DNA of 55,823 nucleotides from Nitrosopumilus sp. (GCA_029862745.1 JAOTWS010000009.1:1-55823); one strand, 5' to 3'; positions 2,664 through 50,044 are shown, counted from the stretch's first letter. Notes: generated from the sequence alone by a model not told the origin. Program-made: numbers and translations.

Positions 2664-2703
2664 ACAAAAATCCTGAATTTAAGGGTCTTTATTAACTATG
2701 ATA

Positions 2704-3033: not shown

Positions 3034-3148
3034 TTTATCTTTACGTATTTTTTCTATTTAACCGTAATAAAACAACACATATTCACAACTTGTCGTCAAT
3101 AAAGAACACTAGTTGTGAATCTAAAAGAAATAAAATGGTGATTGGAAG

Positions 3149-3733: not shown

Positions 3734-3785
3734 TTGCTTTTGTGATTAATGATTGTAATAAAAATATTACATTGAATTCCAAAAC

Positions 3786-6983: not shown

Positions 6984-7069
6984 CTGGATTTTGATATATG
7001 GGTGACATTATAAAGCTAAATTGATTCTACAAGATTTGGATTATATAATTGGTAAAAAGATTACCTTTG

Positions 7070-9739: not shown

Positions 9740-9783
9740 AGGTTTTTTTTGATTTGTAGATATTTAATCCTTGGAATTTTTTA

Positions 9784-10116: not shown

Positions 10117-10117
10117 A

Positions 10118-11052: not shown

Positions 11053-11055
11053 CTA

Positions 11056-11486
11056 GTCAATGCTAGATCAAACCTGCATAAAGTCTATGCTAACCTTAGA
11101 TAAAATACTAGTAATTCCATAATGTGTCATGCAAAGATCGCATCTTCTATTCATTAATAGCATCTATAGCAAGAGATATTGTGTGTTCGTCTGTATAGCC
11201 TTGATGCATTTCTAAAATGTTTCAAATTATGTAATTATGACAGTTTTGCATCAATGGATCCCAATATTGCAGATAATGATTGAGGACTATATAATGGAAA
11301 AAAGACAGGGAAAATCCTGCAGACCATAAAATACCTAATATTTGGACTAGAGTTATTCTGTGATACTAACGATCTCATGGTAAGCTGGAATAAAATTAGA
11401 AGATTACTGCACATCAAAAAAGAAGATAGGTTTCAAGGCGTATTCTACTGAACAGAATAAAAAATACAGCCGGTTTAAGAAATAAT
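11056..11486. other. intergenic, no convincing gene
   Basis: A 430-bp AT-rich spacer. Reading frames on both strands are short and lack the composition of the surrounding genes; a 60-codon minus-strand frame at 11235-11417 looks like chance. I see no RNA gene or repeat. Confidence 0.5.
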
Positions 11487-33664: not shown

Positions 33665-35986
33665 TCAAACTATTGGTTCAATCACTGACTTACAGCATTC
33701 ATCTAATAATTCAGCATAACGCTTTGCATCATATTCTATTAGATTTTTTTTATTATCATGTTGTCTTGTAAGTTCTATTGGCGTTACTCGCTTTGATTTC
33801 TTTCTAGAATAATCATTGATGATATATCGTATTTTTTGACCCTGTACTATCTCTTGTTTTCCTTCCCATTTTAGCTGATTTACTGCATCAGCCTGGATAG
33901 TGTTGCTGATGTAGGTTCCAGTTGATCTTGTTATTTTGTTGGTAAATACTAGCTGCTCTAATGGAACTTCATATTGGAATAACTCTTTTTCATGCCTGTT
34001 CTGGATTAATTTTGCCTCAGATATGGCCATTTTTAGTTCTGCAATAGTCTTGCAGGATGAAAACACCTGCAATATCTCCATCTGACATTTTTTGAAGAAT
34101 ACAGGAGTATCTCGTCTCCTTGATTCGATTCCTCTTATTTTGATGGAACCATCTGTTTTGGCGCCAAAGTATCTGTTTGGAACTGGGATAATTTTATTTT
34201 GTTTTGATGGCAAAAACACAATCCAGTTGTAAATATCAAGTGACATATCAAAGCCTGTCTCTTGTTCTATTGATTCTTGTAATTTTTGATAATCATTTCG
34301 TGTTGCATCTTTTTTGTAAAGCCATAATGAATCAACTATTCCGTGCAATACTTGAAAATGATTTGTTTCTGCAATCTTAATTGATTGTAGCAATAACTGC
34401 CGTGCAAATGAACAAACTGCCATATGAGCATCTATTCTTCCAAATTTTGCATTGTTAAATCCGAGATATCCAAAGGATGTAACCAGAATCCATTTTAGTG
34501 CCGCCTTTCTTGCCTTGTATGTTTCTAGTAATATCTCAGAGTCACTCTTTGTTGCATCAAAACTATCTATCAAATCAGTATACTTTTGTCTTTTTTCTAA
34601 CAAAATATTGATTGATTGGGGTACAATTCCTTCTCTTTTGCAGATGTAATAATCAAGCTCAGGAACAATAATTTTTGAATCCAAATTACAACAGCATTTA
34701 CAGTTTATTGTCTCAGCTGAGATATTCTTTTTTAGCATAATATTTCCAAAAAGTGATACAAAATCAAGTTCTGCTACATTTTCATACAGTCCAATCTTGG
34801 GTTCTAGTATCAATCCTCCTCTATCACCAATCAGTAAATCCATTCTTGACTTGAACTGTTCTGCAACAATTGGCTTCCAAGGAATTAATAATTTTCTTTT
34901 TGTTGCATTATAAAACTGGACAGAACTCATACACTTTCCAATTGATGCACGTGATGCAGTCTGCAACGGCAGACGACATGTTCTTGCTATTTCAAATAGT
35001 CCTTGTTCATTTTCATTTGACTGTTCATGCTCATAAAAAAAGCAGTTTGATGTATCTATGTGAATTCTGCCTAGAGTCTTGGCAGCAGTTGGCTTGTAGT
35101 ATATTTGGCCATATGCAAAAAATGAGTTTCCTTTCCTTTTTTGAGTTAAAATAGGCATATTTTTCTCTCTTCCAAGTACTAGTTTTTCTGAGATTTCATT
35201 TACTTGTGCTCTGTGTATTAAATATGGAAAGTCCCAAGAATCTCCTTTCTGAGTTATTATCAAATCAGGATCTATTCTATGAATTATCTTGATGCATTTT
35301 TGAATCATCTTTTTTTCAGAATCTAGTTGAATTACTATTTCATTGATTTGAATTGATTCTATTTTATCTGAGAATTGTGCTAGTCTTTTTTTCTTTGCTT
35401 GATTATTGCTGTTATCTGTTGGTTTGATGACATTTACTTGTAGTATGACTTTGGAGAATTTTGGTAAAATATAGTCAGTATCATGAATCTTATCAAGTGT
35501 AATCCACTTGTTATTACAGTCTATCTTATATTTGCCTAATACAAACAGATCATTTTCATAAAGATATGTTTGCTCAGGTGGAATATCTACATTGTATAAC
35601 CTATAGACTCCATATGGTTCTGATTGCTCAATCTTTTTTGCAACTGTAACAAGACTTTGTGAATTCTTTACTGTAATCTTTAGGACTTGCGATTTTCTCA
35701 GATCAGACACTTTCTCAAATCGATACACCAAAGAAAAACTTTTGACAAATGGTTTTATCATTGTGTTTGATAATATCCTTTCCAACTTTGACTGGTTATT
35801 TGATGCAACGTATAGTGATGGACTCCACTCTTTTTCTATCCTGTAAGTTTTCCTGTCTGCATCTTTAATCCAAAGTATTATCTTGTTGTTTATAGAATAG
35901 ATATCAAAGAGCCATCCTGTGATGTTTTGATGAAAATCATTATTGATTTTGCTACTGGCATTACTAGTATCTTCTTTCTTAGTCAT
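33665..35986 (-). CDS. aberrant family-B DNA polymerase
   Basis: 773 residues. Polymerase motif A is DFVSLFGNIM (Asp408), motif B KWILVTSFGYLGF (498-510, usual K-x3-NS-x-YG) and motif C HGIVDS (548-553) where YGDTDS is expected, so the first Asp is Ile550 while Asp552 remains; GIESRRRDTP matches the thumb-side motif. The exonuclease part is degraded: no DIE at the Exo I position (~180), a weak Exo II (GDSWDFPYL, 248-256) and no clear Exo III. A cysteine cluster CKCCC sits at 429-433. It ends a four-gene operon and overlaps the preceding gene by 1 nt. Probably a specialised, non-proofreading polymerase; whether it is active is open. Confidence 0.9.
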   Translation of the reverse strand: MTKKEDTSNASSKINNDFHQNITGWLFDIYSINNKIILWIKDADRKTYRIEKEWSPSLYVASNNQSKLERILSNTMIKPFVKSFSLVYRFEKVSDLRKSQVLKITVKNSQSLVTVAKKIEQSEPYGVYRLYNVDIPPEQTYLYENDLFVLGKYKIDCNNKWITLDKIHDTDYILPKFSKVILQVNVIKPTDNSNNQAKKKRLAQFSDKIESIQINEIVIQLDSEKKMIQKCIKIIHRIDPDLIITQKGDSWDFPYLIHRAQVNEISEKLVLGREKNMPILTQKRKGNSFFAYGQIYYKPTAAKTLGRIHIDTSNCFFYEHEQSNENEQGLFEIARTCRLPLQTASRASIGKCMSSVQFYNATKRKLLIPWKPIVAEQFKSRMDLLIGDRGGLILEPKIGLYENVAELDFVSLFGNIMLKKNISAETINCKCCCNLDSKIIVPELDYYICKREGIVPQSINILLEKRQKYTDLIDSFDATKSDSEILLETYKARKAALKWILVTSFGYLGFNNAKFGRIDAHMAVCSFARQLLLQSIKIAETNHFQVLHGIVDSLWLYKKDATRNDYQKLQESIEQETGFDMSLDIYNWIVFLPSKQNKIIPVPNRYFGAKTDGSIKIRGIESRRRDTPVFFKKCQMEILQVFSSCKTIAELKMAISEAKLIQNRHEKELFQYEVPLEQLVFTNKITRSTGTYISNTIQADAVNQLKWEGKQEIVQGQKIRYIINDYSRKKSKRVTPIELTRQHDNKKNLIEYDAKRYAELLDECCKSVIEPIV

Positions 35987-36231
35987 TATTTTTTGTTCTT
36001 TTCTTGTAATAGTAGAAATTCTATCATCTTTTGCTGTGTCAATACTAATGACATTAGCAGTGATTCTGTGGAATAATTATCTCCTTTGATGTTAATTGCA
36101 TTGGTATATCCATAACAATCTTGAATCATTTTTTCAAACAATACCCTGTCTTCTTTTCTTAGTGTGTCTCCAAAGGACTTCCATGATTCAATCTCTTTTG
36201 CAAGCAGATCATCGTTTGGAAATAGGCTCAA
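35986..36231 (-). CDS. small helical protein of the polymerase operon (81 aa)
   Basis: 81 residues, acidic, helical (AKEIESWKSFGDTLRKEDRV, LFEKMIQDCYGYTNAIN, then LLMSLVLTQQKMIEFLLLQE). Its stop overlaps the polymerase start by one base and its own start overlaps the upstream gene by 4 nt, so it is tightly coupled to both. It shares a general plan with the 85-residue upstream product (W-x-x-F...L-x-K-x-D-x-x-x-F-x-x-M), suggesting that the two are distant paralogues. Probably an accessory factor. Confidence 0.75.
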   Translation of the reverse strand: MSLFPNDDLLAKEIESWKSFGDTLRKEDRVLFEKMIQDCYGYTNAINIKGDNYSTESLLMSLVLTQQKMIEFLLLQEKNKK

Positions 36232-36485
36232 TTTTGTAGATTTCCTCCTCTTTTTTGCATAATCTCAGAGAGTTGTTTGTAGTGATGAAAAATCACTGAC
36301 ATGAGTAATGGATGTATCACAATTAGCTTGTGTACCATCATTCCTGATGAGATGTACAGTTTTGCAAAAGAGAACATGTCATCAAATGTCTTTTTGTCTT
36401 GTTTTGGAAGTTTTGATCTGAATTTTCTCCATCTCTTTTCTTCTTGAGATAAAGCAATGCGAAATGACGGAATAGTTCTACCCAT
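36228..36485 (-). CDS. small helical protein of the polymerase operon (85 aa)
   Basis: 85 residues, basic at the N-terminus (MGRTIPSFRIALSQEEKRWR), then KFRSKLPKQDKKTFDDMFSF and a hydrophobic helix around HKLIVIHPLLMSVIFHHYKQ that seems too short and His-rich for a membrane anchor. It overlaps the next gene by 4 nt (ATGA) and lies 19 bp after the RadA-like gene. Its first half parallels the 81-residue protein. I infer a binding partner of the polymerase or RadA-like protein. Confidence 0.75.
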   Translation of the reverse strand: MGRTIPSFRIALSQEEKRWRKFRSKLPKQDKKTFDDMFSFAKLYISSGMMVHKLIVIHPLLMSVIFHHYKQLSEIMQKRGGNLQN

Positions 36486-36504
36486 TTGTTATTTTTACTC
36501 TCCT

Positions 36505-37482
36505 TTAGATGTGGTTGTTGTTATTGTTATAGATATTATCATCAATTGATGTTAATTGTGTAATAGTTTCTAGTTCTTTTCTATCTAGTGTGATCATTTG
36601 TTGATTTATTTTATTATAATTATTATTTGTGGTGATGTGAATTGACAGTGTGTTGTCATGTTCTGCTTTGATGTAAAGTTTCATCGAGAATAATCTATCT
36701 AAGAATTTTTCATATTGGTATGCTCTAGTATTTTTCTCCGTATTTTTATTTTCTAGTGAGACTATGACAAGACATTCTTTTTTTATTTGTTGCAATGACA
36801 AAATTATCTGCTTGATAATTAGTTTCATCTCTTGTTCCTCTAAATATGCAGAGTCTTTGTTTGTAAAAAAATACAATAAATCTGAAAGTATCACTATCTT
36901 GGTGTTGTACTGTCTAACTGCTTGTGCCAATTCGTTTGTTATCAAGTCTGCAAGCTGATAAACTGTAAATGCACGTGATGAAATGATATTTTGTAATACT
37001 TTATTTACATTCATTCCATATAGTTTTGCAAACTCTGTACACTGATAGATATCCGAACTGTTTGCACCATCAATTAATAGTGCATGTGAAGCATCAAATC
37101 CTCCATATCTTGCAGGCATCTGTGCCCTTACACATAATCTTTCTATAATCTTTTGAGTATGAACTCCTGAAATACAGGCTATCTGGTTAGTAGAAAGAAA
37201 GTGTAGAACAGAATCAATCTTTTGTATTCCTAGTGTGAGTTTTGGAATCGATGAGGCTTTTTGAAATATGGTTTTTTGAGATTTGGACTGATGGTAAATT
37301 AGTACTGATGAAGAGATTAGTGGCTGAATTTTTGGTCTTTTTTGTAATGTGTCACGTAATGGCATATCACAATATGGGCATGGTTCTGCAGTCACTCCAC
37401 CACGAAAGTCAAGATCGCTATCTGATTCTTTGAGGATATTGTTGCAATTTTGACAATAGTATTGGAGTACAGTATGCTTCAT
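36505..37482 (-). CDS. RadA/RecA-like protein with lost Walker A
   Basis: 325 residues. An N-terminal zinc ribbon (C10, C13, C35, C38: YYCQNCNN ... PCPYCDM) precedes a RecA-fold core like archaeal RadA: LTLGIQKIDSVLHFL, YQCTEFAKLYGMNVNKVLQN, IISSRAFTVYQLADLITNEL and the Walker B strand TKIVILSDL. The P-loop position reads GVHTQKI (106-112) and lacks GK[ST], so ATP binding is probably lost. The tail is Asn-rich. First gene of the operon, with a free upstream region of ~80 bp. It may act as a RadA-filament-interacting loader for the polymerase, as ImuA does in bacteria; this is inference. Confidence 0.82.
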   Translation of the reverse strand: MKHTVLQYYCQNCNNILKESDSDLDFRGGVTAEPCPYCDMPLRDTLQKRPKIQPLISSSVLIYHQSKSQKTIFQKASSIPKLTLGIQKIDSVLHFLSTNQIACISGVHTQKIIERLCVRAQMPARYGGFDASHALLIDGANSSDIYQCTEFAKLYGMNVNKVLQNIISSRAFTVYQLADLITNELAQAVRQYNTKIVILSDLLYFFTNKDSAYLEEQEMKLIIKQIILSLQQIKKECLVIVSLENKNTEKNTRAYQYEKFLDRLFSMKLYIKAEHDNTLSIHITTNNNYNKINQQMITLDRKELETITQLTSIDDNIYNNNNNHI

Positions 37483-37561
37483 TTTGTTTTATCGTTACAT
37501 TTTGATTAATAGATCAGGGTAATCATAGGATAACCTATGCAAGGAGTTATTCTAAACGTGT

Positions 37562-37699: not shown

Positions 37700-37964
37700 C
37701 ATTCATGCTTTCTAGCATCATTACTAGTGTGTACGGAGGATAATTTTTAAAAAGATTAGTGCAAAAACAAGTATCATGATCTCTAAATCAACATGATCTT
37801 TGTAATATTGCATATCTATGTACAACACTTGTCTTTCAATCTAATTGCATTATGATTATAGATTCTTTTGTTGGAAAAGTGTTTGATCTATGGTTAATGT
37901 ATACAGAACCTGTAATTTATATCAAATTCCACTGATTTCATCTTTGTTGCCTAGACAAGTAAGA

Positions 37965-38927
37965 ATGACTAAAAATGGAATTTTGTGTGAAATTAATGAA
38001 AAACGAGTCTATATGGATCCAAAAAACAGTGATCCTGCTGGAATTAATTTTGTTTCACATGCTCATATTGATCATCTTCCTTCAAAAAATGGCGGAACAA
38101 TTCTGTCCTCAATTGAGACAAACGAAATAGCTAATCTACGTGGATTTAAAATGGAAAATCATGTTGATTTCCTTGATGATTTTTCATTGATTGACAGCGG
38201 CCACATTCTTGGTGCAAAAGGACTTTTATTTGATGATATTTTTTACACTGGTGATATCTGCACTAGAGATCGTGGGTTTCTCAAAGGTGCAAAAATCCCA
38301 AAATGCAAAACTCTCATTACTGAATCTACGTTTGGTTTACCTGAATTTATTTTCCCTAAACTTGAAGATACTTTAAAGTACGTAAATGAGTTAATTTCTG
38401 AACTCTATGGTAAGGGCATTCCTGTAATCTTGATGGGATATCAATTAGGAAAAGCACAAACAATTACTCAGTTGTTTGGGCATTGGGGACCTCTCTATCT
38501 CCATGATTCTGTAAAAGATATGAATTTACTTCATCAGAGATTGGGAGTGCATCTAAATGATGGCCTTGGACATTCTGAAGCTGAGAAAAAGGGGCTACTT
38601 GATAAAAAGCCATGGATAATGGTCGCACCAATGCTATCTAGGAAAAATAAATTTGTTCAAGAAATGAAATCAAAATACGGTGCTGTAACAATTGGATTCA
38701 GTGGTTGGGCACAATCATCAAGATTTTCTTTTGGAAGAAGAACTGATTATTCAATTCCAATGAGTGATCATTGTGATTATAATGAACTTTTAGATATGGT
38801 TGTAGCTTCTGATGCAGAACAAGTATACACTATACATGGTTTTGTCAAAGAGTTTGCAGACGATTTAAGAAAAATAGGAATTAGTGCTCAACCCTTGCTT
38901 GAAAATTCTTTAGATGATTTTACTTAG
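37965..38927 (+). CDS. MBL-fold exonuclease (SNM1/CPSF73-like)
   Basis: About 320 residues of metallo-beta-lactamase fold. The signature HAHIDHL is at the usual place after INFVS; further ligands are in IDSGHILGAKG and the FYTGDI strand, and late GFSGWAQ and MSDHCDYNELL with Asp-His ligands. This matches the COG1236 group (mRNA 3'-end factor or DNA-ligase-associated exonuclease). I chose ATG 37965 because MTKNGILCEINEKRVYMDP is the family N-terminus; an in-frame ATG at 37890 would add 25 residues. It overlaps the convergent gene at 38920 by 8 bp. Confidence 0.88.
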   Translation: MTKNGILCEINEKRVYMDPKNSDPAGINFVSHAHIDHLPSKNGGTILSSIETNEIANLRGFKMENHVDFLDDFSLIDSGHILGAKGLLFDDIFYTGDICTRDRGFLKGAKIPKCKTLITESTFGLPEFIFPKLEDTLKYVNELISELYGKGIPVILMGYQLGKAQTITQLFGHWGPLYLHDSVKDMNLLHQRLGVHLNDGLGHSEAEKKGLLDKKPWIMVAPMLSRKNKFVQEMKSKYGAVTIGFSGWAQSSRFSFGRRTDYSIPMSDHCDYNELLDMVVASDAEQVYTIHGFVKEFADDLRKIGISAQPLLENSLDDFT

Positions 38928-39156
38928 AAAATTTACGGCATTCACAACTAGCAGCTAAACATGTCTCTGTATTTCTTATATGGTCATGCGAGAAATGTTT
39001 ACACTTTTCATTTTTACATATTCTTCTTTGTGCTTCTTTTTGTACTACTGCTTGTGCAATCTGGTTTGCCTTATCTTTTGAGTACCCTTTTTTATCAATA
39101 TAGAAATGAACAATTTGGTTGTATAGCAAATCTGGTTTGAACTGTTTTTCTAACAT
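38920..39156 (-). CDS. small Cys/His protein (78 aa)
   Basis: 78 residues: a helical N-terminal half (LLYNQIVHFYIDKKGYSKDK, ANQIAQAVVQKEAQRR) and a C-terminal metal-binding half with ICKNEKCKHFSHDHIRNTE and CLAASCECRKFSK (five Cys, three His). It overlaps the MBL gene 3' end by 8 bp on the other strand. No characterised relative recognised; the C-x3-C-x-C ending resembles the tiny Cys-rich proteins at 50 kb. Confidence 0.75.
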   Translation of the reverse strand: MLEKQFKPDLLYNQIVHFYIDKKGYSKDKANQIAQAVVQKEAQRRICKNEKCKHFSHDHIRNTETCLAASCECRKFSK

Positions 39157-39198
39157 GAGAATGTCTGGTTAATCTGGTTCTACATTATATTAAAACTC

Positions 39199-39466
39199 AT
39201 GCAGCAGAGAAGTATACTTTTATTTAAAAATTCAATAAAGTCTGATGCAACTAGAAAGACATATCTATATTATTTGAATAAATTTTTGAACTTTTATCAT
39301 ATCGAGGACTATGATTCCTTGGCATATATTGAAACGGAAATAATACAGATCATTGTTGAAGACCACAATGTACTTGAAGAAGGTAAAATCCACAAATTCT
39401 ATTAACTTGACACTTACTGCCATCAAGGCATTTCTTGATTGCAATGATGATATTGATTTTAGATAG
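39199..39466 (+). pseudogene. fragment of a tyrosine integrase (SAM-like N domain)
   Basis: The first frame reads FKNSIKSDATRKTYLYYLNK, FLNFYHIEDYDSLA, the core-binding domain of phage integrases, and stops at 39405. One frame over, KSTNSINLTLTAIKAFLDCN continues the same domain until TAG 39466. The catalytic domain is absent. A relic of an integrated element near a patch of small genes. Confidence 0.65.
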
Positions 39467-39490
39467 TTTGACGTATTGTGATAATAGCGC

Positions 39491-39706
39491 CTGACTACAA
39501 TAACTACCAAAAAGTCTCCAAATCTCAAGCACTGTCCTGAGTGTGACAAGACAATCAGTGTAGGTGTGGATATCATAAAAAATCCAAATGACAAATGGAT
39601 TCATCGTACTTGTTATGATGAACTAGAATGTGATAAAAAAAGACAAATAATATGGCAGGTGAGTTTTGGAATCTGGATGATAATTAGTAAAATCTTTAAA
39701 ATTTAA
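39491..39706 (+). pseudogene. zinc-motif ORF lacking a usual start codon
   Basis: A 71-codon open frame (39491-39706) with HCPECDKTISVGVDIIKNPN and DKWIHRTCYDELECDKKRQI: C-x2-C plus H-x2-C, a treble-clef style zinc site with W and H in the right places. No ATG, GTG or TTG precedes the conserved part, so it is either a fragment or starts at an unusual codon. The rest of 39707-39995 is empty. Confidence 0.4.
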
Positions 39707-39995
39707 GATATATTGATTTCTATGTATATTCTTAATTTTTGATCAGATCTAATATTGTGTTGATGGTTCTCTGATTCTAGCAATCTAGTTTTATTGCGAA
39801 TATCAGTCATCTATAGATATTCTTGATCAATTAATTTAATATTTTTTATCCTATCAAATAGACATTCATCTGCACAGTGAGTAAGTTCAGAAACTGAACT
39901 ATCCTATGATACGTTAATTCAAAACAAGAACAACATGACACTAAAAAATTAGGTGAGTCCTAAGTATCTCCATACATTATACATATTGAATAAAC

Positions 39996-40219
39996 ATGAG
40001 CACATACAACATACAACAACAAATCTCTGAGAACACAAAGATAAAACTCGGAGTAGTAGGTTGGTTGCCTTGCCTATAGCTGCTGCAATGTATTCTTCTG
40101 GAAGCATTGCATCAATAGAACAAGTGCCACAAATCCTCACCAACGGAGTATTTCCAATCGGATTTACATTGCTATCTTGGGGTATTGCAGTAAAACTGGC
40201 AATAAAATTGAGAAAGTAG
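39996..40219 (+). pseudogene. small membrane protein, one-base frameshift
   Basis: ATG 39996 reads MSTYNIQQQISENTKIKLGV then VGWLPCL-stop. One frame over, the continuation is ALPIAAAMYSSGSIASIEQV, PQILTNGVFPIGFTLLSWGI and AVKLAIKLRK-stop at 40219: a second hydrophobic helix with a basic end. Joining them at GGTTGGTTGCC gives a ~74-residue two-helix membrane protein. The lesion is a single indel in a repetitive GGTT stretch, so a sequencing slip is possible. Confidence 0.55.
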
Positions 40220-40323
40220 AGTTCATCTGCTTTTATCAATTCTTTTTACTTTTCTATTTTCATCTAAAAGATACTGATGATTCCTCCGTTTACCTTTTAA
40301 ACAAATTTTGTAAGTATTGATTA

Positions 40324-40455
40324 ATGAAAATACAGGATATGAATGATGAAAAAAATCAATTCATGAAATTGCAATGCGGATGTGCTGTTGATAATTTTGA
40401 AGGTACTCTACTAACTGAGTGCACAGATCACATACAGGCAAATTTCATGAACTAA
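40324..40455 (+). CDS. small protein (43 aa)
   Basis: ATG 40324, 43 codons: MKIQDMNDEKNQFMKLQCGC, AVDNFEGTLLTECTDHIQAN. Three cysteines and one histidine (CGC ... C-x2-H) could hold a metal. Similar small proteins with C-x-C and C-x2-H recur around it. Function unknown. Confidence 0.45.
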   Translation: MKIQDMNDEKNQFMKLQCGCAVDNFEGTLLTECTDHIQANFMN

Positions 40456-40497
40456 ATTTTTTTAAAAAATTTATAGTGTAAGATTTGATCTTTTCTA

Positions 40498-40716
40498 ATG
40501 TCCTGTAGGGGAATCTGCCACAGATACAAGGCTGAAAAACCAGCACTTCCTGCTACAAGATATGGTAATGGCCAAAAGCGATGTAACACATGTGATATGT
40601 TCATAGAGTGGGACGGCAATCACTGTCCGTGCTGTGGCAGCAACCTTAGAACAAAACCAAAAGGTACTGGATCAAGGCATCAACTGATGATCATACAACA
40701 GATAAAAAGAATCTAA
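40498..40716 (+). CDS. zinc-ribbon protein (72 aa)
   Basis: ATG 40498. Reads MSCRGICHRYKAEKPALPAT, RYGNGQKRCNTCDMFIEWDG, NHCPCCGSNLRTKPKGTG: C-x3-C-H near the start and a C-x2-C ... C-P-C-C-G zinc ribbon. The form R-C-x2-C-x-x-[FW]-I-x-W-x-G-x-x-C-P-C-C-G recalls small archaeal proteins of unknown role. Solitary gene with AT-rich flanks. Confidence 0.75.
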   Translation: MSCRGICHRYKAEKPALPATRYGNGQKRCNTCDMFIEWDGNHCPCCGSNLRTKPKGTGSRHQLMIIQQIKRI

Positions 40717-40949
40717 GAGATTTTTTGCATAATATCAAGTGTAAAAATTATCATATTCAGGATTAATTGAAAAATAGGTCAAGATGGAGGTTTTTGATAT
40801 AGCACATGCTCTGAGATTATCTTCAAGACCTATCAGTTTTGATCCCGTAGATAGTGTTACTTATTCAATATTGATAATTCACACACATGTGATTTATTTT
40901 TCATACTTATTTGAACAATCTATTAATTCTAAAACAGCATACATACAGT

Positions 40950-41384
40950 ATGAGCAAAAAAACTGAATCTCAGTTAGACCATCAGGATGAAAAATTATCT
41001 ATCTGCGATATTATGAAAGAAGACACATCTGAGGTGATCAAAAAAGTGGAGTCACAAGTACCCGTACTGTTCCAGAATTATTCTGATATTTATACGCAGT
41101 ATCTTCATTCACTAGATGACATCTTTGGGACGTGCTACATTGCTGAAAAAGAATTCTTTGACAAACTTAACCTAGATCAGTCAATATTGAGGCAAATCAA
41201 AGAAAATTCCAAAATCATCAAAGAAAATTATTTCAAGAATATTGAAACGTCAACAAAATTCTTTGATCAATACACCAAGATGAGAATGGAAATGATAAAA
41301 TCATTTGACACATACATGCACACTATTATGGAATCTTATGTCAAGACACTGTCACAGTTTAACAAGTATGTGGAAAAATCATAA
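40950..41384 (+). CDS. helical protein, paralogue of the protein at 11487
   Basis: 144 residues from ATG 40950 (the frame opens 13 codons earlier without a good start). All-helical, charged, no cysteine except one (FGTCY). Aligns with the product at 11487-11909, notably KKVESQVPVLFQNYSDIY, LHSLDDIFGTCYIAEKEFFD and QYTKMRMEMIKSFDTYM. The two are far diverged, so the duplication is old. Phasin/PhaE-like granule association is a possibility based only on the style of sequence. Confidence 0.75.
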   Translation: MSKKTESQLDHQDEKLSICDIMKEDTSEVIKKVESQVPVLFQNYSDIYTQYLHSLDDIFGTCYIAEKEFFDKLNLDQSILRQIKENSKIIKENYFKNIETSTKFFDQYTKMRMEMIKSFDTYMHTIMESYVKTLSQFNKYVEKS

Positions 41385-41582
41385 ATTCAACGCTGGTCAA
41401 AACAAGTTAGTATGTCTGAATTCTATATTAACCCCTGATGCAATGGTAATAATCTGCAGCATCATATGAATAAAAAAACCAAAACGACGTAACACAAGAA
41501 TAATTTTTAAAATTAGAACTTCCTAATTAGGATAATCTAATTTTCGTATTGTTTTTAAATCCATTTTTACATATTACATTCT

Positions 41583-41765
41583 ATGGAAAACAAGATCTGT
41601 AAAATTTGCAATTCTAAACTTGAAGTGGAAAGAGTATGCAAAGTGTGTGAAGAGCCAACAAGATTATTCTGCCACACTTGTGGGATGATGGCAGAAAAAA
41701 GAATGCATCCTGCATGTATGATATTGGATGTTAATTCAATGTTGGTGCAAACTCAGTCCCACTAA
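41583..41765 (+). CDS. small zinc-finger protein (60 aa)
   Basis: 60 residues with three C-x2-C knuckles: KICKICNSK, RVCKVCEEP and LFCHTCGMMAEKRMHPAC. Eight ligands (seven Cys, His) suggest a double zinc site such as a B-box or RING-like mini fold. ATG 41583 follows an AT-rich element (CATTTTTACATATTACATT). Function unknown; another member of the local group of tiny zinc proteins. Confidence 0.7.
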   Translation: MENKICKICNSKLEVERVCKVCEEPTRLFCHTCGMMAEKRMHPACMILDVNSMLVQTQSH

Positions 41766-41987
41766 AATTATTTTTTTATAATTTGTTGACATCCTCTTTG
41801 TATTTGCTTTTGTGTTGTATGTACTATTCCACGATTCTATTTTTTTAGTATCTGTCTGCTGCCATTTTGATCGCAGCGTCTGTAAAAGTTGAAACGCTTT
41901 ATTATAATATTTATTTAATTAGAATAAATGATTTTGATTACATGTAAGTAAAGACTATAACATAATAGTAATTTTCAAAGCATAATC

Positions 41988-42086
41988 ATGAACATCTTGA
42001 AAAAATGTTTGCACTGCGGGGAGGGGAAATTTGTAAGCAAGTTTGAAAAATTATGTTCGTTCAAATATGCAAGCAAGATATCGTAA
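41988..42086 (+). CDS. possible tiny zinc protein (32 aa)
   Basis: ATG 41988, 32 codons: MNILKKCLHCGEGKFVSKFE, KLCSFKYASKIS. One C-x2-C-G knuckle and a third Cys; looks like half of a zinc ribbon, so it may be a fragment. The spacers around it (41766-41987, 42087-42291) show nothing. Confidence 0.35.
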   Translation: MNILKKCLHCGEGKFVSKFEKLCSFKYASKIS

Positions 42087-42291
42087 ATTCATGATCTGTT
42101 ATGATGATAACAAATCATAGAAAAATTATTTTATATATTAGATACATTTGATTATGATCTTGTAGGTGGTCATAACACTATTTATTGTCACTACTGACAT
42201 GATAAATTTTTTCTAATATTGGAGTTTTATTTTATAAAACATCAAAATAATTGAAAAGTGAAAACATGATACATAATTTTATTATAAAAAA

Positions 42292-42945
42292 CTAACGTAC
42301 TCTGGTAATTTCTGAACGCAAAATGTCATATGCTTTTGATGCATTCATCTCATCAAGTACTATTATTATACTGTCTTGACTAAAATATGCATTAAGAAGC
42401 TCAATCCCTTCTGCATGTAAGACTTCTGCCACATAAGATACAATATCTGAACGATTCTGATTTTGTGGAATAGTAATTTTGATCTTTGCAAGTCCGGTAC
42501 TAAATATATTTTCTCTGTTTGGATGATGCTCAAACATCTGACGAATCTCATCTATATCTTCGGTGAGAAATCTAAATGAATCAGACACTCTGAAGAATTC
42601 GTAATTGTCTGTAATCTTGGAAAATTGGTTTAAAATTGTTGTAGGATCCATTTCCTCAGAATCTTTTATTGAAAATTTTATATCTACAATCCCATCAGTC
42701 AACGCTAATCTGGCATTTTTTAAAACAGATTCTTCTTTTACTTCTTGTTTGGTCTCAAACGAATCGGCATATCTTTTGATTGCTACAACTATTGTGTTTA
42801 GGTTAACAGAATTTCCCAAGATTCGTTCTATTTCTGGTTGAATCTTTACTGCTAATGCTGTGAAATTTATCAAATCCATTTTCATACAATCATAAATTGA
42901 TCGATTTCTTGTAATGATCTCCTTTACGATTTCTGGTATTGACAT
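42292..42945 (-). CDS. ACT-domain regulatory protein
   Basis: About 217 residues from ATG 42945 (a TTG start 5 codons upstream is possible). The N-terminal third is helical (IPEIVKEIITRNRSIYDCMK, MDLINFTALAVKIQPEIERI) and resembles a winged helix; the C-terminal part (GLAKIKITIPQNQNRSDIVS, YVAEVLHAEGIELLNAYFSQ, DSIIIVLDEMNASKAYDILR) follows the beta-alpha-beta-beta-alpha-beta ACT fold seen in aspartokinase. Probably a ligand-responsive regulator; the ligand is not known. Divergent from the Hsp20-CDC48 unit. Confidence 0.7.
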   Translation of the reverse strand: MSIPEIVKEIITRNRSIYDCMKMDLINFTALAVKIQPEIERILGNSVNLNTIVVAIKRYADSFETKQEVKEESVLKNARLALTDGIVDIKFSIKDSEEMDPTTILNQFSKITDNYEFFRVSDSFRFLTEDIDEIRQMFEHHPNRENIFSTGLAKIKITIPQNQNRSDIVSYVAEVLHAEGIELLNAYFSQDSIIIVLDEMNASKAYDILRSEITRVR

Positions 42946-43020
42946 ATTTCTCTTCCTCAAATACTGTAAAATTTTATCACATATAATAGCATTATGTAAT
43001 AAAACTAATTATTAACGTAA

Positions 43021-43033
43021 ATATTTATATAAT
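43021..43033 (+). promoter_or_regulatory. TATA box for Hsp20-CDC48
   Basis: ATATTTATATAAT, about 30-40 bp upstream of the Hsp20 start codon, the expected distance of an archaeal TATA box for a leaderless or short-leader transcript. The same 13-mer occurs at 47385 before another gene at nearly the same spacing. Confidence 0.65.
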
Positions 43034-43062
43034 GTAATGTATATTACATACACTAGGTGAAT

Positions 43063-43563
43063 ATGACAATGTTCTTTGATGACGAATTTGATAGAATCTT
43101 CAAGAGAATGTCCAACTCATTTATGAATTTGGATGATCTTTTAGATGATGCAAGAAATACTGGCTCTATTTCCGGTCCATATTATTATGGTTATACAATG
43201 ACCATTGGACCAGATGGAAAGCCAATAGTAAAGGAGTATGGGAATGTAAAGCCAGGGTTACTTCCAGGCTCTGACACAAGAGATCCTGTAGTGGATACTG
43301 TTGTTGATGAAAAAGAAAAAACTGTGAAACTCATAGCAGAAATGCCAGGAGTTGAAAAATCAAACATCAATGTAACTATTGAAGAAAATATTGTAAAGAT
43401 CAAGGCAGAACAGGACAAAAAGAAATACCATTCTCAAGTACCGTTACAAATTAAGGTTGATGAGAATTCTGTAAAAGCATCCTACAAAAATGGCATACTA
43501 GAAGTTACATTGAAGATTCTAGAAGAAGAAAAACCACGAGGCAAAAAGGTGGAGGTGGAATAG
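43063..43563 (+). CDS. hsp20: small heat shock protein (Hsp20)
   Basis: About 166 residues from ATG 43063 (GTG 43057 and ATG 43069 also in frame). An N-terminal arm (FFDDEFDRIFKRMSNSFMNL), a Gly/Tyr/Pro-rich linker (PYYYGYTMTIGPDGKPIVKE) and the crystallin domain (TVKLIAEMPGVEKSNINVTI, NGILEVTLK). Only weakly similar to the Hsp20 at 33044: this one is acidic with the longer linker typical of archaeal Hsp20 of the HVO-type. It lies 27-38 bp before the CDC48 gene and is probably in its operon, pairing a holdase with an unfoldase. Confidence 0.92.
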   Translation: MTMFFDDEFDRIFKRMSNSFMNLDDLLDDARNTGSISGPYYYGYTMTIGPDGKPIVKEYGNVKPGLLPGSDTRDPVVDTVVDEKEKTVKLIAEMPGVEKSNINVTIEENIVKIKAEQDKKKYHSQVPLQIKVDENSVKASYKNGILEVTLKILEEEKPRGKKVEVE

Positions 43564-43601
43564 AACAACCTCTATTCTATTTTTTATAGGTGATAATTAA
43601 G

Positions 43602-45767
43602 ATGAACGAAATTGAATTAAAAATTGATGAAATTCCACAACAACATGTAGGACGTGGAAGAGCCATAGTTGATCCTAAAATTATAGAGGATACAAACTGG
43701 AGTACTGGTCAGATTTTAGAATTAACATATAATAAAAAATCACATGTTAAACTTTGGCCTGGATCCCCCGAAGAATATGGTGCAGGAATAATCAAGATAG
43801 ATGGAATTACAAGACAAAACATTGGAGCAGGGATAGGAGATAAAATAAAAATTAAAGATGTAGAGGCAGCAGATGCAAAGCAAATAATTCTATCTCCCAC
43901 TGAAAAAATTCAAGCAGAGGGATTACAAGATTACATGATTCACAATTATCTTAATCATGTTTTTACTACAGGTGATACAATATCCCTTAACACTCAGATG
44001 GGAGGAAAGGTACAATTCATTGTTACCAGTACAGAACCATCAAAACCAGTTATTGTGACAGAACAAACTGTTTTCAAACTTGGTTCGATGACAAAGGCAG
44101 TAGATGCAACCATCCCAAGAATTACGTATGATGATCTTGGAGGTTTAAAAAATGAAGTACAGAAGATTCGCGAGATGGTAGAACTACCAATGAGGCATCC
44201 TGAACTATTTGAGAAAATTGGAGTTGAGGCACCAAAAGGTGTTTTACTTTATGGCCCTCCAGGTACAGGTAAGACCTTACTTGCTAAAGCTGTAGCAGGT
44301 GAAACTAATGCTAACTTTACATACTTAAGTGGACCTGAAATCATGGGCAAATACTATGGAGAAAGCGAGGAGAGAATCAGGGACATATTCAAGCAAGCAG
44401 AAGAGAACTCCCCAAGCATCATCTTCATTGATGAAATTGATTCCATTGCTCCAAAGAGAGAAGAAGTTACAGGAGAGGTGGAAAAAAGAATAGTGTCTCA
44501 ATTATTGACATTAATGGATGGAATGAAGGCTAGAGGTAAAGTTGTAGTAATTGCAGCTACCAACAGGCCTGACTCTATAGATCCCGCATTAAGAAGACCA
44601 GGTAGATTTGACAGAGAGATTGAGATTGGAATTCCTGATGAGGAAGGGCGTAATGACATACTTGCAATCCACACAAGAGGAATGCCAATAGATGATAAAG
44701 TAAACTTGGATGATATTGCAAAAATAACCCATGGTTTTGTTGGAGCAGATCTTGAAATTCTTGCAAAAGAAGCTGCAATGAGATCATTGCGAAAGATACT
44801 ACCTGACATTGATCTTGATCAAGACAAAATTTCTTCAGAGATTCTTCAAAAGATCAAAGTTACTGAAGATGACTTTAGAGATGCACTAAAAGAGGTAAAA
44901 CCATCTGCACTGCGAGAAGTGTTAGTGGAGATTCCAAACGTTACATGGGATGATGTAGGAGGATTAGACGACCTTAAAGAAGAACTTCGTGAAACCATAG
45001 AGTGGCCAATTAAACATAAAGAAGCATTTGATTATGTAGATGTAACAGCACCAAAAGGAATCTTACTTTATGGCCCTCCTGGAACTGGAAAGACTTTGAT
45101 TGCAAAGGCACTTGCAAAAACAACTGAATCCAATTTTATTAGCATCAAGGGTCCAGAACTACTCTCAAAATGGGTTGGTGAGTCTGAAAAAGGAGTCAGA
45201 GAAATCTTCAGAAAGGCTAGACAGGCAGCACCATGTATCATATTCTTTGATGAGATTGATGCACTGGCACCACGGAGAAGTGGTGGTGATTCATCACATG
45301 TATCAGAAAGCGTTGTATCGCAAATACTAACAGAGATTGACGGATTAGAAGAACTTCATGATGTGTTGATTGTAGGTGCTACAAACAGATTGGATATTGT
45401 AGATGATGCACTGCTAAGACCTGGAAGATTTGACAGAATTATCAGAGTTCCAAATCCCGATGCAAAAAGCAGAGAAAAAATATTCAAGATTCATACCCGG
45501 AAAAAACCCCTTGACAACAACGTGAATATTTCTGAGATAGTTGAGCGTACAGATGGATTCAGTGGTGCTGAGATAGAGTCAATTGCAAACAGAGCAGCAA
45601 TTAGGGCACTCAAAAGATATGTTGAAGGTAAATCACAAAACTTTAAGGAAATCAAAATCACTCAAGAAGATCTGCTTAATGCAATTGAGAAGATAAGACC
45701 AACTCTGCCAAAAAAAGATGATCAGAACACTAAAGATAAGGACACGTTAACTGCAGATACAAAATAA
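43602..45767 (+). CDS. cdc48: CDC48/VCP-type AAA+ ATPase
   Basis: About 721 residues from ATG 43602. An N-domain (double-psi barrel, [20 protein letters not shown]) is followed by two AAA+ modules, each with Walker A GPPGTGKT (about 220 and 490), Walker B ([12 protein letters not shown] and [12 protein letters not shown]) and arginine fingers (RRPGRFDRE and LRPGRFDRI). It uses ATP to unfold or extract proteins and can feed the proteasome. The C-terminal tail is charged ([13 protein letters not shown]) and lacks the HbYX motif. Hsp20 directly upstream. No lesion over 2.2 kb. Confidence 0.96.
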
Positions 45768-45879
45768 TTTCTATTGTAGTATCAAATACACAATAATCTA
45801 TGTATGGTGTCATAATATTATGTATAAGAAATTCTATACTTTATTGGCTCTTTAGTATTCTAACTGTAGAAATAATATC

Positions 45880-46761
45880 ATGAGTTACATAGAAGAAAAT
45901 TCCAACGTAGAAGATTATTTTAGTTCTAGAGCAAACAAGAGATCAAGAAATACTGTAAGATGCACACTTTCTGTTTTCAATAGATATTGTTTAACAAAGT
46001 ATCAGAGAGATGCTCAGACTGTCGTAAAGGATCTAAAGAATGAAAATAATGAGAAAATATACACGATGGCAAATCCATATGTAATTTGGTTAGGACAAGA
46101 ACATCCCGAGATTTTAATCAAAATTGGTAGGCACGAATATGAAAGACCAATGAAAGCTTTGCATCCATCAACAATCAGAAATTATGTAGGTCATCCCAAA
46201 GATTATCTGGAAGAATTGGTGGGTTTGAGATTTCTGATAGAAGATGGAAAAAAGAGTTAAGCTTCCAAAGATGATTTCTGAAGATCCTGAACCTTTTAGA
46301 CCTGAGGAAGTTAGGATTTTACTTGATAATGCTTCTCCAAAAAAGGGATTTCTCTATATGGTTCTCAAAGATTCTGGAATGAGAATTGGAGAAACGTTAC
46401 AGATTAGAAAAAAGGATGTAGACTGTACAAAGAATCCTGTTGAGATAAAGATTCCAGCTTGGGCTACAAAGACCAAGAAGGGAAGAACTGCTTACATTAC
46501 TAGGGAGACTGCCCAATGATGAGGAGAAGATTAAATGAAATCAATGAACATGGTGAGGTTCTTGAAAAACATCTTCTAGATTCCTCTGCTGAAGAATTTG
46601 ATATATCTCAAATAACTGCCAAAAGATACCTTGATGCAATGTGTTCTTCTCATGGATGCCTTGAGAAAGTCTCTAGGGTGAAAAGTAGCATAATTAGAAT
46701 GAAAAAAGAGGATTTATGGCATAACCTCTTTTTACATCATTATGAATTCGAACAATTCTAA
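45880..46761 (+). pseudogene. tyrosine recombinase/integrase, broken in three frames
   Basis: Frame 1 (45880-46260) is the core-binding domain (NTVRCTLSVFNRYCLTKYQR ... STIRNYVGHPKDYLEELVGL). Frame 2 (46244-46519) starts the catalytic domain: MVLKDSGMRIGETLQIRKKD with the first catalytic Arg, then KTKKGRTAYITRETAQ. Frame 3 (46516-46761) begins RLNEINEHGE as expected for the next strand but drifts off, and no H-x-x-R ... Y is found. So the catalytic His, second Arg and Tyr are missing. A small frame at 46742-46849 follows. Relic of an integrated element. Confidence 0.75.
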
Positions 46762-46849
46762 ATCAAATGATTCAAAAATACTTGAAATTCTAACTACTAG
46801 TAATTTAGACTACTCAACTGAAATAGATCGTTTTTTAAAGTCAGAATAA
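46742..46849 (+). CDS. possible small protein (35 aa)
   Basis: ATG 46742 overlaps the end of the integrase relic and opens 35 codons (MNSNNSKSNDSKILEILTTS, NLDYSTEIDRFLKSE). Helical, acidic, Asn/Ser-rich start. It could be real or a scrap of the broken integrase. Confidence 0.25.
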   Translation: MNSNNSKSNDSKILEILTTSNLDYSTEIDRFLKSE

Positions 46850-46868
46850 TTTCTTGAAATATCCAACT

Positions 46869-47060
46869 TTAAACATTGCCAATATCGCTAGTTTCACGCA
46901 AGTCACCATCAGGAAGAATCTCTATTTGTCTAACGAAGATTTCCCCATCTTTAATTCCATGTAAATGAATTAAACCTAAACCTGGATCCTTTTCAAAATG
47001 TAAACAAATTTCAAAATCGTTAAGATGTAACCTATAATGGTGATTATCCTTAATTTCCAT
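46869..47060 (-). CDS. hypothetical protein (63 aa)
   Basis: 63 residues: MEIKDNHHYRLHLNDFEICL, HFEKDPGLGLIHLHGIKDGE, IFVRQIEILPDGDL. Beta-rich, many His. The start codon lies 1 bp after the stop of the frameshifted gene upstream, so the two form an operon. I do not recognise it. Confidence 0.5.
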   Translation of the reverse strand: MEIKDNHHYRLHLNDFEICLHFEKDPGLGLIHLHGIKDGEIFVRQIEILPDGDLRETSDIGNV

Positions 47061-47061
47061 A

Positions 47062-47348
47062 TTAGTTCAAAAAACCTCCAAAATTTTGATATTTTTTTGA
47101 ACGAAGTGTATTCAAAATTCTAGCATCTACATCATTCCAATCATAAAGGAAATTTTCGTTAAAACATACATTGACATATTCTTGTAATACTTTTTTACCT
47201 AATCGGTATCTAGGGTTATTTTCATCATTTCTACCATTTGCTAGTAATGCACCAACTAATTCTTTATTGGTAGGTTTATGTCAAATAACCAAGTAATTTT
47301 ATCACCATCAAACAATCTACCTTTTGAGAAAGTAATTGTTTCAGGCAT
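47062..47348 (-). pseudogene. hypothetical protein gene with frameshift
   Basis: From ATG 47348 the frame reads MPETITFSKGRLFDGDKITW LFDI and soon stops; one frame over the text continues TNKELVGALLANGRNDENNP, RYRLGKKVLQEYVNVCFNEN and DWNDVDARILNTLRSKKYQN to TAA 47062. The total of 287 bp is not a multiple of three. The break is near TTTGACATAAACC. The second part is helical and unknown. Divergent from the HTH regulator at 47418. Confidence 0.6.
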
Positions 47349-47384
47349 TTGTTCAGTTAGAGACACACTATATCATAGGTAGGG

Positions 47385-47397
47385 ATATTTATATAAT
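47385..47397 (+). promoter_or_regulatory. TATA box for the HTH regulator
   Basis: ATATTTATATAAT, 20-33 bp before the ATG of the HTH gene; identical to the 13-mer ahead of Hsp20-CDC48 at 43021. The gap to the start codon implies a nearly leaderless transcript. Confidence 0.55.
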
Positions 47398-47417
47398 GAA
47401 AACTTTACATATATGTA

Positions 47418-48089
47418 ATGAAAGCTGATATATCAATATCTGATAGCACATTAATTGATTTTTTAGAATTGATATTAGAAAACGGTCCACAGACAGCCTA
47501 TGCTATGAGAGAAATAGCAGGAAAATCATATGGAACAACTCATCTTTATCTTAATGAAATGGAAAAGAGACAATTACTAAAAATTTATGATGAAAAACCT
47601 CACAAAAGTGGAAAAACTAAGAAATTTTTTGGACCAACCATTACAGGAATAATGGGTGTTTTTTTGTATAATTTAGAATTTCAAGAACAGGAAATAGAAA
47701 CTAAGGATAATGAAAAAGAAATGGAAGACCAACTTAGAACAATATATCATAAATGGAAACATATCAAACCATTTACAGAAGAAATCAAAGAGTTTGCAGG
47801 TTTTTCAGAAGAACAAATTCTGAATGATCCTGAATCAGAAACATACTTCATTAGATACATGCATTTTTTCATAGGTTTAGCTAGTCAAGCAAGTAGATTA
47901 CAAGAAGAAAGTATACAGGATAAGATGGTAATGTATGCTCTACATTTAGCAACTGGAGAACAAAAAGAACAATACATTAGTTTTGTAAAATTTATGGCAG
48001 ACTATTCTGAAGGATACAAAAATTCCATAATAACAGGAGTAAAGAAAATTCGTTCTGATATGGATGATATTTTAGATGTTTTAAAATAA
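47418..48089 (+). CDS. winged-helix transcription regulator-like protein
   Basis: 223 residues. Residues ~10-75 look like a winged helix: TLIDFLELILENGPQTAYAM, REIAGKSYGTTHLYLNEMEK, RQLLKIYDEKPHKSGKTKKF (wing). The rest is helical and charged (EQEIETKDNEKEMEDQLRTI ... MADYSEGYKNSIITGVKKIR), perhaps a dimerisation or sensor part. It sits between a divergent broken gene and a PIN-like fragment in a region with an integrase relic, so it may belong to an acquired element. Confidence 0.75.
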   Translation: MKADISISDSTLIDFLELILENGPQTAYAMREIAGKSYGTTHLYLNEMEKRQLLKIYDEKPHKSGKTKKFFGPTITGIMGVFLYNLEFQEQEIETKDNEKEMEDQLRTIYHKWKHIKPFTEEIKEFAGFSEEQILNDPESETYFIRYMHFFIGLASQASRLQEESIQDKMVMYALHLATGEQKEQYISFVKFMADYSEGYKNSIITGVKKIRSDMDDILDVLK

Positions 48090-48177
48090 GAAAAATTTGT
48101 AAATTATAGAATTTAGTTAACTTTTGAGAGAAAATGAAATAAGCAAACGTATCCCAATCAAATCTAAAATAATGACT

Positions 48178-48570
48178 ATGAAGATTTTTCTTGATTCAAA
48201 AGATTGGATAACTTTGGCACGAATAGTAAGTGGAAAGGAAACAGATTTTGAATTACAAAAAATATATGAAAAAATTAAAAAATTGTCTGATTCAGAAACA
48301 GCTATTTTTCCATTTTCAATGTTTCATCTTGATGATATAATGAAAAGAACTAACAAAGAATCTAGAGACAAAGTAATTGATGTTATGATTGATATTTCAA
48401 AAGGTTGGGTAATGAAACCATACATTCTTTTCTTTAAAAAGGAAGTTGAAAATGCAACAATAAATCGACTTGGAATTCCCTCCATTCACAAGATTTCATC
48501 TCAAATTTTTGGCAAGGGAATAGCATATACTGCAGGTAAGGTAATATCACATCACAAGGATCTCTTGTAA
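48178..48570 (+). CDS. PIN-like protein, probably truncated
   Basis: 130 residues from ATG 48178. The N-terminus MKIFLDSKDWITLARIVSGK matches the first strand and acidic residue of PIN-like nucleases (usually LD-x-N/K-x-W/I-x-L), and helices follow (FELQKIYEKIKKLSDSETAI FPFS, DDIMKRTNKESRDKVIDVMI). After about residue 118 the reading frame runs into other sequence and stops; full-length relatives I would expect to be longer, with two further acidic motifs. So the nuclease is likely dead or incomplete. Confidence 0.55.
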   Translation: MKIFLDSKDWITLARIVSGKETDFELQKIYEKIKKLSDSETAIFPFSMFHLDDIMKRTNKESRDKVIDVMIDISKGWVMKPYILFFKKEVENATINRLGIPSIHKISSQIFGKGIAYTAGKVISHHKDLL

Positions 48571-48771
48571 TTATTCAAATCTTCAAATCTGGAAGAAAAT
48601 CCTGCTCATGTTGCACAGGTTGGCTTGGCGATAATTCCTTTGAATACAAGTTCAGAGTGCTATCTATCGATGATGATCAGTGTCCTATTTTACAGAAAAT
48701 AAGAATTCATTGTTTGGTTGAACCAAACGTATATCGTGAAATATTTTCTGGTTTTTTAATTTCTGCTTATT
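48540..48771 (+). other. start-less coding fragment
   Basis: A frame opened at 48540 by an upstream stop reads coherent protein: GNITSQGSLVIIQIFKSGRK, SCSCCTGWLGDNSFEYKFRV, LSIDDDQCPILQKIRIHCLV. It begins where the PIN-like gene loses sense and ends against the ParB gene, so it looks like the tail of a different gene joined at a recombination junction. Family not recognised. Confidence 0.4.
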
Positions 48772-49578
48772 TCATTTCCTCTTCAGATATTTTGAGATTA
48801 TTTCATCTGCCATATCTGATACATCCATATCATTTTTGATTGCAAGGCTGCGCAATTTTCTTGCATTACTCTTATTCAGCTCAAGTGTGATCTTTTGTTG
48901 TAGCATTCCTAACTTTGCTTTTTTGAGCAATTTTAGATGTGGTGACTTTGGACTTTTTGCAAGGAAATTGAGATATTTTTTTCGCAGTCTTTGATCAAGC
49001 AGAATTATCTTCTCTGCAATATTAACTGCCTTTGAAATGTTTGGGATTGTTTGGTATAGTTTTGTTGCATCATCCCGTGATAGTTCCTTTGGTACGTATT
49101 GTTTTAATCTTTCAGGAACTGCTGCAAATCCTAGATATTTTTTAAGGGTTTGCATAGATATTCCAAGCGATTGAGCTGCCTTGCCTTTCCCTACAGATTC
49201 TGCCAGAAACACACATGCTGCTGTCATGTCTTTCATATCCATCTTGTTTCTATGTAAATTCTCTATCATTGATGCTGCTTTTGCATTCTCCAGATCATAT
49301 TTTGTATTTTGAGTGAGTAATAATACTGGTATCTTTTTTGCTCCCAATCTTTTCAATGCTGCAAATCTTCGTTGGCCTGACATTAGAAGATACGAATCTT
49401 TTGATTCTTTTTGCACCATCGGTGGATTCTGCAATCCTTCATTTTTAATAGACCTTGCAAGATCTGTTATTCCTTCACGGTCTAGTTTTCTTGCTTGTGC
49501 ATCACGCCACACTTTAATCTGTTTTACTGGAATCACTCTTAATCTATAGGATATTGGTGGATTGTAACGCCTTGCCAC
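48772..49578 (-). CDS. parB: ParB/Spo0J-type protein
   Basis: 268 residues. ParB N-domain: YRLRVIPVKQIKVWRDAQAR, GLQNPPMVQKESKDSYLLMS GQRRFAALKRLGAKKIPVL with the GQRR box (CTP-binding), then ENLHRNKMDMKDMTAACVFL. The HTH GKGKAAQSLGISMQTLKKYL follows. The C-terminal third is Lys-rich helical. It binds DNA and may serve chromosome or element partitioning; no ParA is adjacent. Position beside integrase relics allows an element origin, yet the gene itself is intact. Confidence 0.88.
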   Translation of the reverse strand: MARRYNPPISYRLRVIPVKQIKVWRDAQARKLDREGITDLARSIKNEGLQNPPMVQKESKDSYLLMSGQRRFAALKRLGAKKIPVLLLTQNTKYDLENAKAASMIENLHRNKMDMKDMTAACVFLAESVGKGKAAQSLGISMQTLKKYLGFAAVPERLKQYVPKELSRDDATKLYQTIPNISKAVNIAEKIILLDQRLRKKYLNFLAKSPKSPHLKLLKKAKLGMLQQKITLELNKSNARKLRSLAIKNDMDVSDMADEIISKYLKRK

Positions 49579-49748
49579 ATATTACACAAAAATATAATTT
49601 GTGTTAAAAGATATAGTTATTTACAATTGACAAGTAATCAAAATTTCAGTCTCTTTTCTAGTCACATACAATCAGTTCTTTCTATTCTAGTGCTATATGA
49701 GAGCGTTCACAACAAGATATGTATCTTCTAAATTCTTTTCACTAATGT

Positions 49749-49937
49749 ATGCCAATTTACATGATACAAAAACCAATAAAAAAATTTGAACAATTAAGTA
49801 TGTATATTTCAGAGATTCACATATTGAAAAGTGATATCACTTCAATGTTGAACTATTCCAATTATTTACATAATGGCATACATCCCAGGTATAATCTTGA
49901 TGATATTTTATTCTTAGATTGCATTTGTTTATTATGA
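49749..49937 (+). CDS. doubtful small ORF
   Basis: 62 codons starting MPIYMIQKPIKKFEQLSMYI and ending LDDILFLDCICLL. Mixed composition, no motif. The flanks (49579-49748, 49938-50044) are AT-rich and empty. Kept only because no other reading explains the stretch. Confidence 0.3.
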   Translation: MPIYMIQKPIKKFEQLSMYISEIHILKSDITSMLNYSNYLHNGIHPRYNLDDILFLDCICLL

Positions 49938-50044
49938 AACAATATGGACATATGGTTACAAGATCAAATTATTTTATACGTCTAATCTAAGCAGGTATTC
50001 TTCAGATCTAGATTTTATGTCCAAACATTGAGACTCAAACTATT

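Follow-up and report, generated by a model that had tools for sequence, protein, structure and literature searches.

A probable PolB2 mutasome operon in a Nitrosopumilus-type archaeon, with a zinc-ribbon iRadA and two PPB2 copies

What is the function of an operon in which a RadA-like protein that has lost its P-loop is encoded together with two small proteins and an unusual family-B DNA polymerase? The question is raised by positions 33665-37482 of a stretch of Nitrosopumilus sp. DNA of 55,823 nucleotides (nt) (GCA_029862745.1 JAOTWS010000009.1:1-55823; hereafter the window), which is contig C9 of a 1.81-Mb genome that is 99.9% complete and, among named organisms, stands closest to Nitrosopumilus-type Nitrososphaerota. 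A sequence-only reading had proposed a mutasome-like module of the Nitrososphaerota, akin to the Dpo2/PolB2 operon, and gene content, motifs, folds and the conserved neighbourhood bear this out; the operon very probably encodes a PolB2 mutasome, i.e. a dedicated translesion-synthesis polymerase complex. The system as such is already known: the archaeal operon was published in 2014 (Makarova et al. 2014, PMC4104785) and the complex was modelled in 2025 (Timinskas et al. 2025, PMC11791011).

The interval holds four minus-strand open reading frames (ORFs) of 325, 85, 81 and 773 amino acids:

36505-37482, minus strand: iRadA, an inactive RadA/Rad51 paralogue of 325 amino acids with a C4 zinc ribbon and a lost Walker A motif (Pfam, alignment, AlphaFold, Foldseek)
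36228-36485, minus strand: PPB2a, a canonical PPB2 (arCOG07300) of 85 amino acids with an N-terminal MGRT arm (motif, relatives in Bathyarchaeota)
35986-36231, minus strand: PPB2b, a second PPB2 copy of 81 amino acids without MGRT, with an M-x-LFPxxD N-terminus and a TTG start (hhalign, 12 loci)
33665-35986, minus strand: PolB2, a family-B DNA polymerase of 773 amino acids (Pfam, motifs, AlphaFold, Foldseek, tree)

Lengths, strand and spacing reproduce the initial gene calls (gaps of +19, -4 and -1 nt), with 19 nt separating 36505 from 36485, followed by overlaps of 4 nt and 1 nt. AAAGGAG and GAGGAGG lie upstream of the starts of PPB2a and PPB2b, respectively, and the TTG start of PPB2b is supported by relatives that share the M-x-LFP start. 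The arrangement is not a chance one, since many genomes share the gene order. The sequence-only reading had staked its proposal on a neighbourhood conserved in related genomes, and the four-gene order is kept in at least 24 named Nitrososphaerota loci; iRadA, one PPB2 and PolB2 are found together in at least 18 Bathyarchaeota loci. Co-occurrence points the same way. In a sample of 200 genomes of the class, PPB2 is present in all 31 strong PolB2 carriers (E<1e-100) versus 3 of the 169 other genomes (Fisher p ~3e-33, a value that ignores phylogeny), and congeners without PolB2 encode the canonical RadA only and no PPB2. Some Nitrososphaerales (L163, L174, L177, L187) display the order PPB2a-iRadA-PPB2b-PolB2.

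Alignment and profile search agree that the first gene product is, as had been read from the sequence, a RadA-like protein without a Walker motif. It matches the Pfam Rad51 (3.3e-11) and RadA models, RadA scores 1.5e-20 in the profile search, and GVHTQKI stands at the position of the RadA sequence GEFGSGKTQ, which means that the P-loop is lost. A RecA fold of this protein had been chosen beforehand as a test of the proposal; the AlphaFold model (predicted local distance difference test, pLDDT, 86.5) has a RecA/Rad51 fold, and the best PDB matches in Foldseek are Rad51/RadA (E 2.7e-15, TM-score up to 0.83 over the core). The N-terminal helical domain is absent, and in its place the first 45 residues form a zinc ribbon with cysteines C10, C13, C35 and C38, all invariant in 12 Nitrososphaeria iRadAs. 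The zinc-ribbon pattern occurs in 16 named Nitrososphaerota loci; among the loci compared, it is absent from several Nitrososphaerales iRadAs and was detected in no Bathyarchaeota iRadA. Zinc is not mentioned in the main text of the 2025 paper (PMC11791011), nor for iRadA in the 2014 paper (PMC4104785). The ribbon may contact DNA or a partner protein. A canonical RadA is also encoded in the same genome (contig C5).

The two small helical proteins of the sequence-only reading both exist, but they are not of two kinds; they are two copies of PPB2/arCOG07300. PPB2a starts with MGRTIPSFR, of which MGRT.PSFR is invariant in 12 Nitrososphaerota PPB2a proteins. The MGRT arm is the published motif of the family (PMC11791011), whose members are small three-helix proteins; PPB2a fits this description in size and N-terminal arm, and it has relatives in Bathyarchaeota. 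A comparison of the PPB2a and PPB2b profiles (hhalign) gives a probability of 97.3% and an E-value of 1.8e-11. PPB2b is devoid of MGRT and has a start of its own, M-x-LFPxxD, that is kept in 12 loci; a duplicated PPB2 with MGRT on one copy only is a described variant (PMC11791011). Pfam matches of PPB2a to Mannosyl_trans3 or DUF2976 were weak, below the cut-offs, and were disregarded. Several Nitrososphaeraceae (G100, G114, G139, G182, G082) carry 2-8 PPB2-like matches, some in ORFs of 180-218 amino acids, away from polB2.

The 773-amino-acid protein matches Pfam DNA_pol_B (2.7e-23) and the exonuclease family (3.5e-12), while matches to several PRK05761-type archaeal PolB models remain below the cut-offs. 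Its AlphaFold model (pLDDT 86.2) finds KOD polymerase as best match in Foldseek (4.6e-39), along with related archaeal polymerases, and the protein is only 30% identical to the PolB1 of the same genome. The motifs A and B and the HGIVDS motif C reported for this protein were recovered in the alignment. D408 (motif A), K498 (motif B, which is intact) and D552 (the second Asp of motif C) are invariant in 26 sequences, as is the DRGG loop (D(K/R) loop) at 388-391, before motif A. Motif C, which was aligned across 50 further loci, reads HGIVDS in the window's protein, i.e. HxxxD for YxDTD with the second Asp kept. It had been taken as a sign of an aberrant polymerase; instead, a motif C altered in this way is the normal PolB2 state. 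HGIVDS is common to most of the branch that holds the window's protein (Nitrososphaerota, Bathyarchaeota), and the 585-amino-acid crenarchaeal-type PolB2s carry HGIIDS and DKGG. The HxxxD motif C and the D(K/R) loop are hallmarks of PolB2 (PMC8764526). The exonuclease domain is degraded, as first described: acidic residues are lacking from the strand at the Exo I position (KVILQVNVI, 179-186 of the AlphaFold model), an Exo II remnant is kept (GDSWDFPYL), and the hidden Markov model alignment to archaeal PolB covers neither the Exo I nor the Exo III region.

The length of the polymerase had suggested a separate lineage, and this idea did not survive the phylogeny. In a tree that took in PolB2 and no PolB1 rows, the window's PolB2 groups with three Nitrosopumilaceae, then with Nitrosotaleaceae, inside a Nitrososphaerota clade (98% support in the Shimodaira-Hasegawa-like approximate likelihood ratio test, SH-aLRT) that adjoins Bathyarchaeota. 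The short crenarchaeal-type PolB2s (family f35, 555-591 amino acids), which from their length and motifs are probably those of Sulfolobales, form a separate, well-separated clade. The median PolB2 length is 750 amino acids in 24 Nitrososphaerota rows; judged by such lengths, 773 amino acids is ordinary for the Nitrososphaerota/Bathyarchaeota branch, and it is the Sulfolobus Dpo2, the smallest PolB2 known (PMC8764526), that is the reduced form. A new polymerase lineage is thus rejected, as tree and motifs place the protein within PolB2.

How such a complex would work is best framed by the Sulfolobus enzyme. Dpo2 is an active extender polymerase that is devoid of proofreading and of the first motif C Asp, yet as active as the replicase (PMC8764526); it is inducible and acts as a translesion extender (PMC8764526, PMC7390963), and it is solely responsible for targeted mutagenesis (PMC7390963). 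By analogy with these experiments and the published models, extender activity, induction by damage and a similar geometry of the complex may be expected of the Nitrosopumilus operon. PolB2 would extend, without proofreading, primer ends that are mismatched or lie opposite a lesion. iRadA, without ATP binding by a P-loop, would dock on PolB2 where the neighbour in a RadA filament would sit, and the MGRT arm of one PPB2a would enter the cleft between PolB2, iRadA and DNA. PPB2b may help to build the PPB2 trimer, a step that we infer ourselves, and the assembled complex would carry primers past lesions.

Several observations weigh against a PolB2 mutasome at this locus. Motif A is SLFG rather than SLYP both here and in the Nitrosopumilaceae relatives (SLYG in Nitrosotaleaceae): Phe replaces Tyr at the residue commonly known as the steric gate, and Gly replaces the Pro after it, which could lower activity or affect the discrimination between sugars. 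No QxxLxxFF-like PCNA-binding motif was seen at the C-termini of PolB2 or iRadA, and no orc1/cdc6 or lexA gene was identified adjoining the operon. In some Nitrososphaeraceae polB2 lies apart from the other genes, and strict operon linkage is therefore not universal. It is important to point out that the PCNA-binding motif is present in PolB2 or iRadA of only a fraction of mutasome members and is not required. For Nitrosocosmicus and related Nitrososphaeraceae, with their orphan polB2, loss of the system was considered and rejected, as these genomes carry iRadA-like and PPB2 genes at other places.

The decayed exonuclease, the missing first Asp of motif C and the SLFG motif A might also be taken to mean that the polymerase is dead and that the four products form a complex with a regulatory or structural role, e.g. 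at stalled forks or in origin control; inactivity of PolB2 was indeed predicted in 2014 (PMC4104785). We regard this as highly improbable, given that Sulfolobus Dpo2, whose motif C is in the same state, matches the replicase in activity (PMC8764526) and that D408, K498 and D552 do not vary. Another departure from a mutasome of the Sulfolobus kind concerns its architecture. The invariant ribbon cysteines, the ribbon's apparent restriction to iRadAs outside the Bathyarchaeota, the distinct LFPxxD N-terminus of PPB2b and the well-supported Nitrososphaerota PolB2 clade would all suit a distinct subtype, whose architecture or target departs from that in Sulfolobus through a zinc-ribbon iRadA and an obligate PPB2a/PPB2b heterotrimer. 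Since published modelling of a duplicated PPB2 favours trimers built of the MGRT copy alone (PMC11791011), several Nitrososphaerales iRadAs do without the ribbon, and neither core components nor motifs differ, we hold such a subtype to be rather unlikely. With the same rather low likelihood, the complex of many Nitrososphaerota would have two functionally different arms (MGRT and, on the second PPB2 subunit, LFPxxD) and an extra module that binds DNA or a partner.

The age of the operon in this genome is a question of its own, which turns on its surroundings:

11079-37906, no strand assigned: an operon-bearing segment of ~27 kb (BLASTN synteny)
37518-37535, minus strand: inverted repeat GGTTAT-N6-ATTACC, a candidate operator, kept in three Nitrosopumilaceae relatives

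In six relatives, window positions 1-11078 directly join 37907-39155, and the operon therefore sits in a segment of ~27 kb that these genomes do not have. A seventh relative (G122) has a different insert of 3.7 kb at this site, which suggests an insertion hotspot. In G094, where the operon is on another contig, the left flank of the site was not seen. A second stretch of ~11 kb (39160-50040) is missing or shorter in seven of eight relatives; like the first, it holds stress-related genes, with no integrase seen. PolB2 is found in just 3 of 95 genomes of the genus, two of which have only a fragment of it at the end of a contig, and one fragment keeps the operon gene order. With this rarity, the segment missing from six relatives and the insert of G122 in mind, the operon could have arrived recently, as a mobile or island set of genes, rather than being an old component of the lineage. 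This appears possible but doubtful: the branching of the tree, first Nitrosopumilaceae and then Nitrosotaleaceae, is that expected of vertical descent with losses, no recognised integrase occurs among the scanned ORFs of the segment, and its G+C content of 0.324 is near that of the flanks. The segment also carries stress-type genes, namely two Usp, Hsp20, a thermosome subunit, CNNM/CBS and an AMP-phosphorylase-type enzyme. PolY is encoded by 85 of the 95 congeners and the window's genome has one Y-family polymerase; PolB2 therefore adds to PolY and does not replace it.

The inverted repeat lies 36-53 nt upstream of iRadA and follows the consensus GGKTAT-N6-ATWACC in four Nitrosopumilaceae, including the window, where 0.02 sites are expected by chance. 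The genome has only 3 sites in total, and the other two, one among genes for ribosomal proteins and one close to a gene of reductase type, do not support a regulon. As a sign of damage-inducible expression the repeat is only suggestive. DUF72 genes lie beside or near polB2 in relatives (L033:8225-9025, L035:9363-10148, L038:3843-4760, L039:2876-3430), which fits a published association; none was identified beside the operon in the window.

With the published mutasome (PMC11791011, PMC4104785), the operon shares its three components in the order iRadA-PPB2-PolB2, the MGRT arm on one PPB2 only, the inactive RadA, the D(K/R) loop, a motif C without the first Asp and the degraded exonuclease; it differs in the zinc ribbon, LFPxxD and SLFG, which are absent from the main texts, and in having no canonical PCNA box. 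The Dpo2 of Sulfolobus islandicus (PMC8764526, PMC7390963) belongs to the same polymerase family with the same motif C and loop features, but the crenarchaeal-type form has 555-591 rather than 773 amino acids, its exonuclease domain is more reduced and the two fall into separate clades. The Bathyarchaeota operons have the same gene order iRadA-PPB2-PolB2 and a PolB2 of ~770 amino acids, but a single PPB2 (MGKT or MGRT) and no zinc ribbon in iRadA. Escherichia coli Pol V (UmuD'2C-RecA) and ImuA-ImuB-DnaE2 likewise combine a special polymerase, a RecA-type protein and small partners; this is an analogy only, as their polymerase families and small subunits are others.

A table of seven ammonia-oxidizing archaea gives B1, D and Y polymerases only (PMC5817080), and our literature search found no paper that names PolB2 together with ammonia-oxidizing archaea. 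Nor did we find the zinc-ribbon iRadA, the LFPxxD second PPB2, the SLFG motif A or the extreme patchiness in the main text of any paper; these lineage-specific elaborations on a known system deserve testing. For a few members of this globally abundant group, the complete PolB2 mutasome of a Nitrosopumilus-type genome is likely to be an additional pathway of mutagenic repair. Being patchy within one genus, it provides a natural test for an effect on mutation rate or ultraviolet tolerance, and its duplicated PPB2 and zinc ribbon make the published model of the complex testable in a mesophile.

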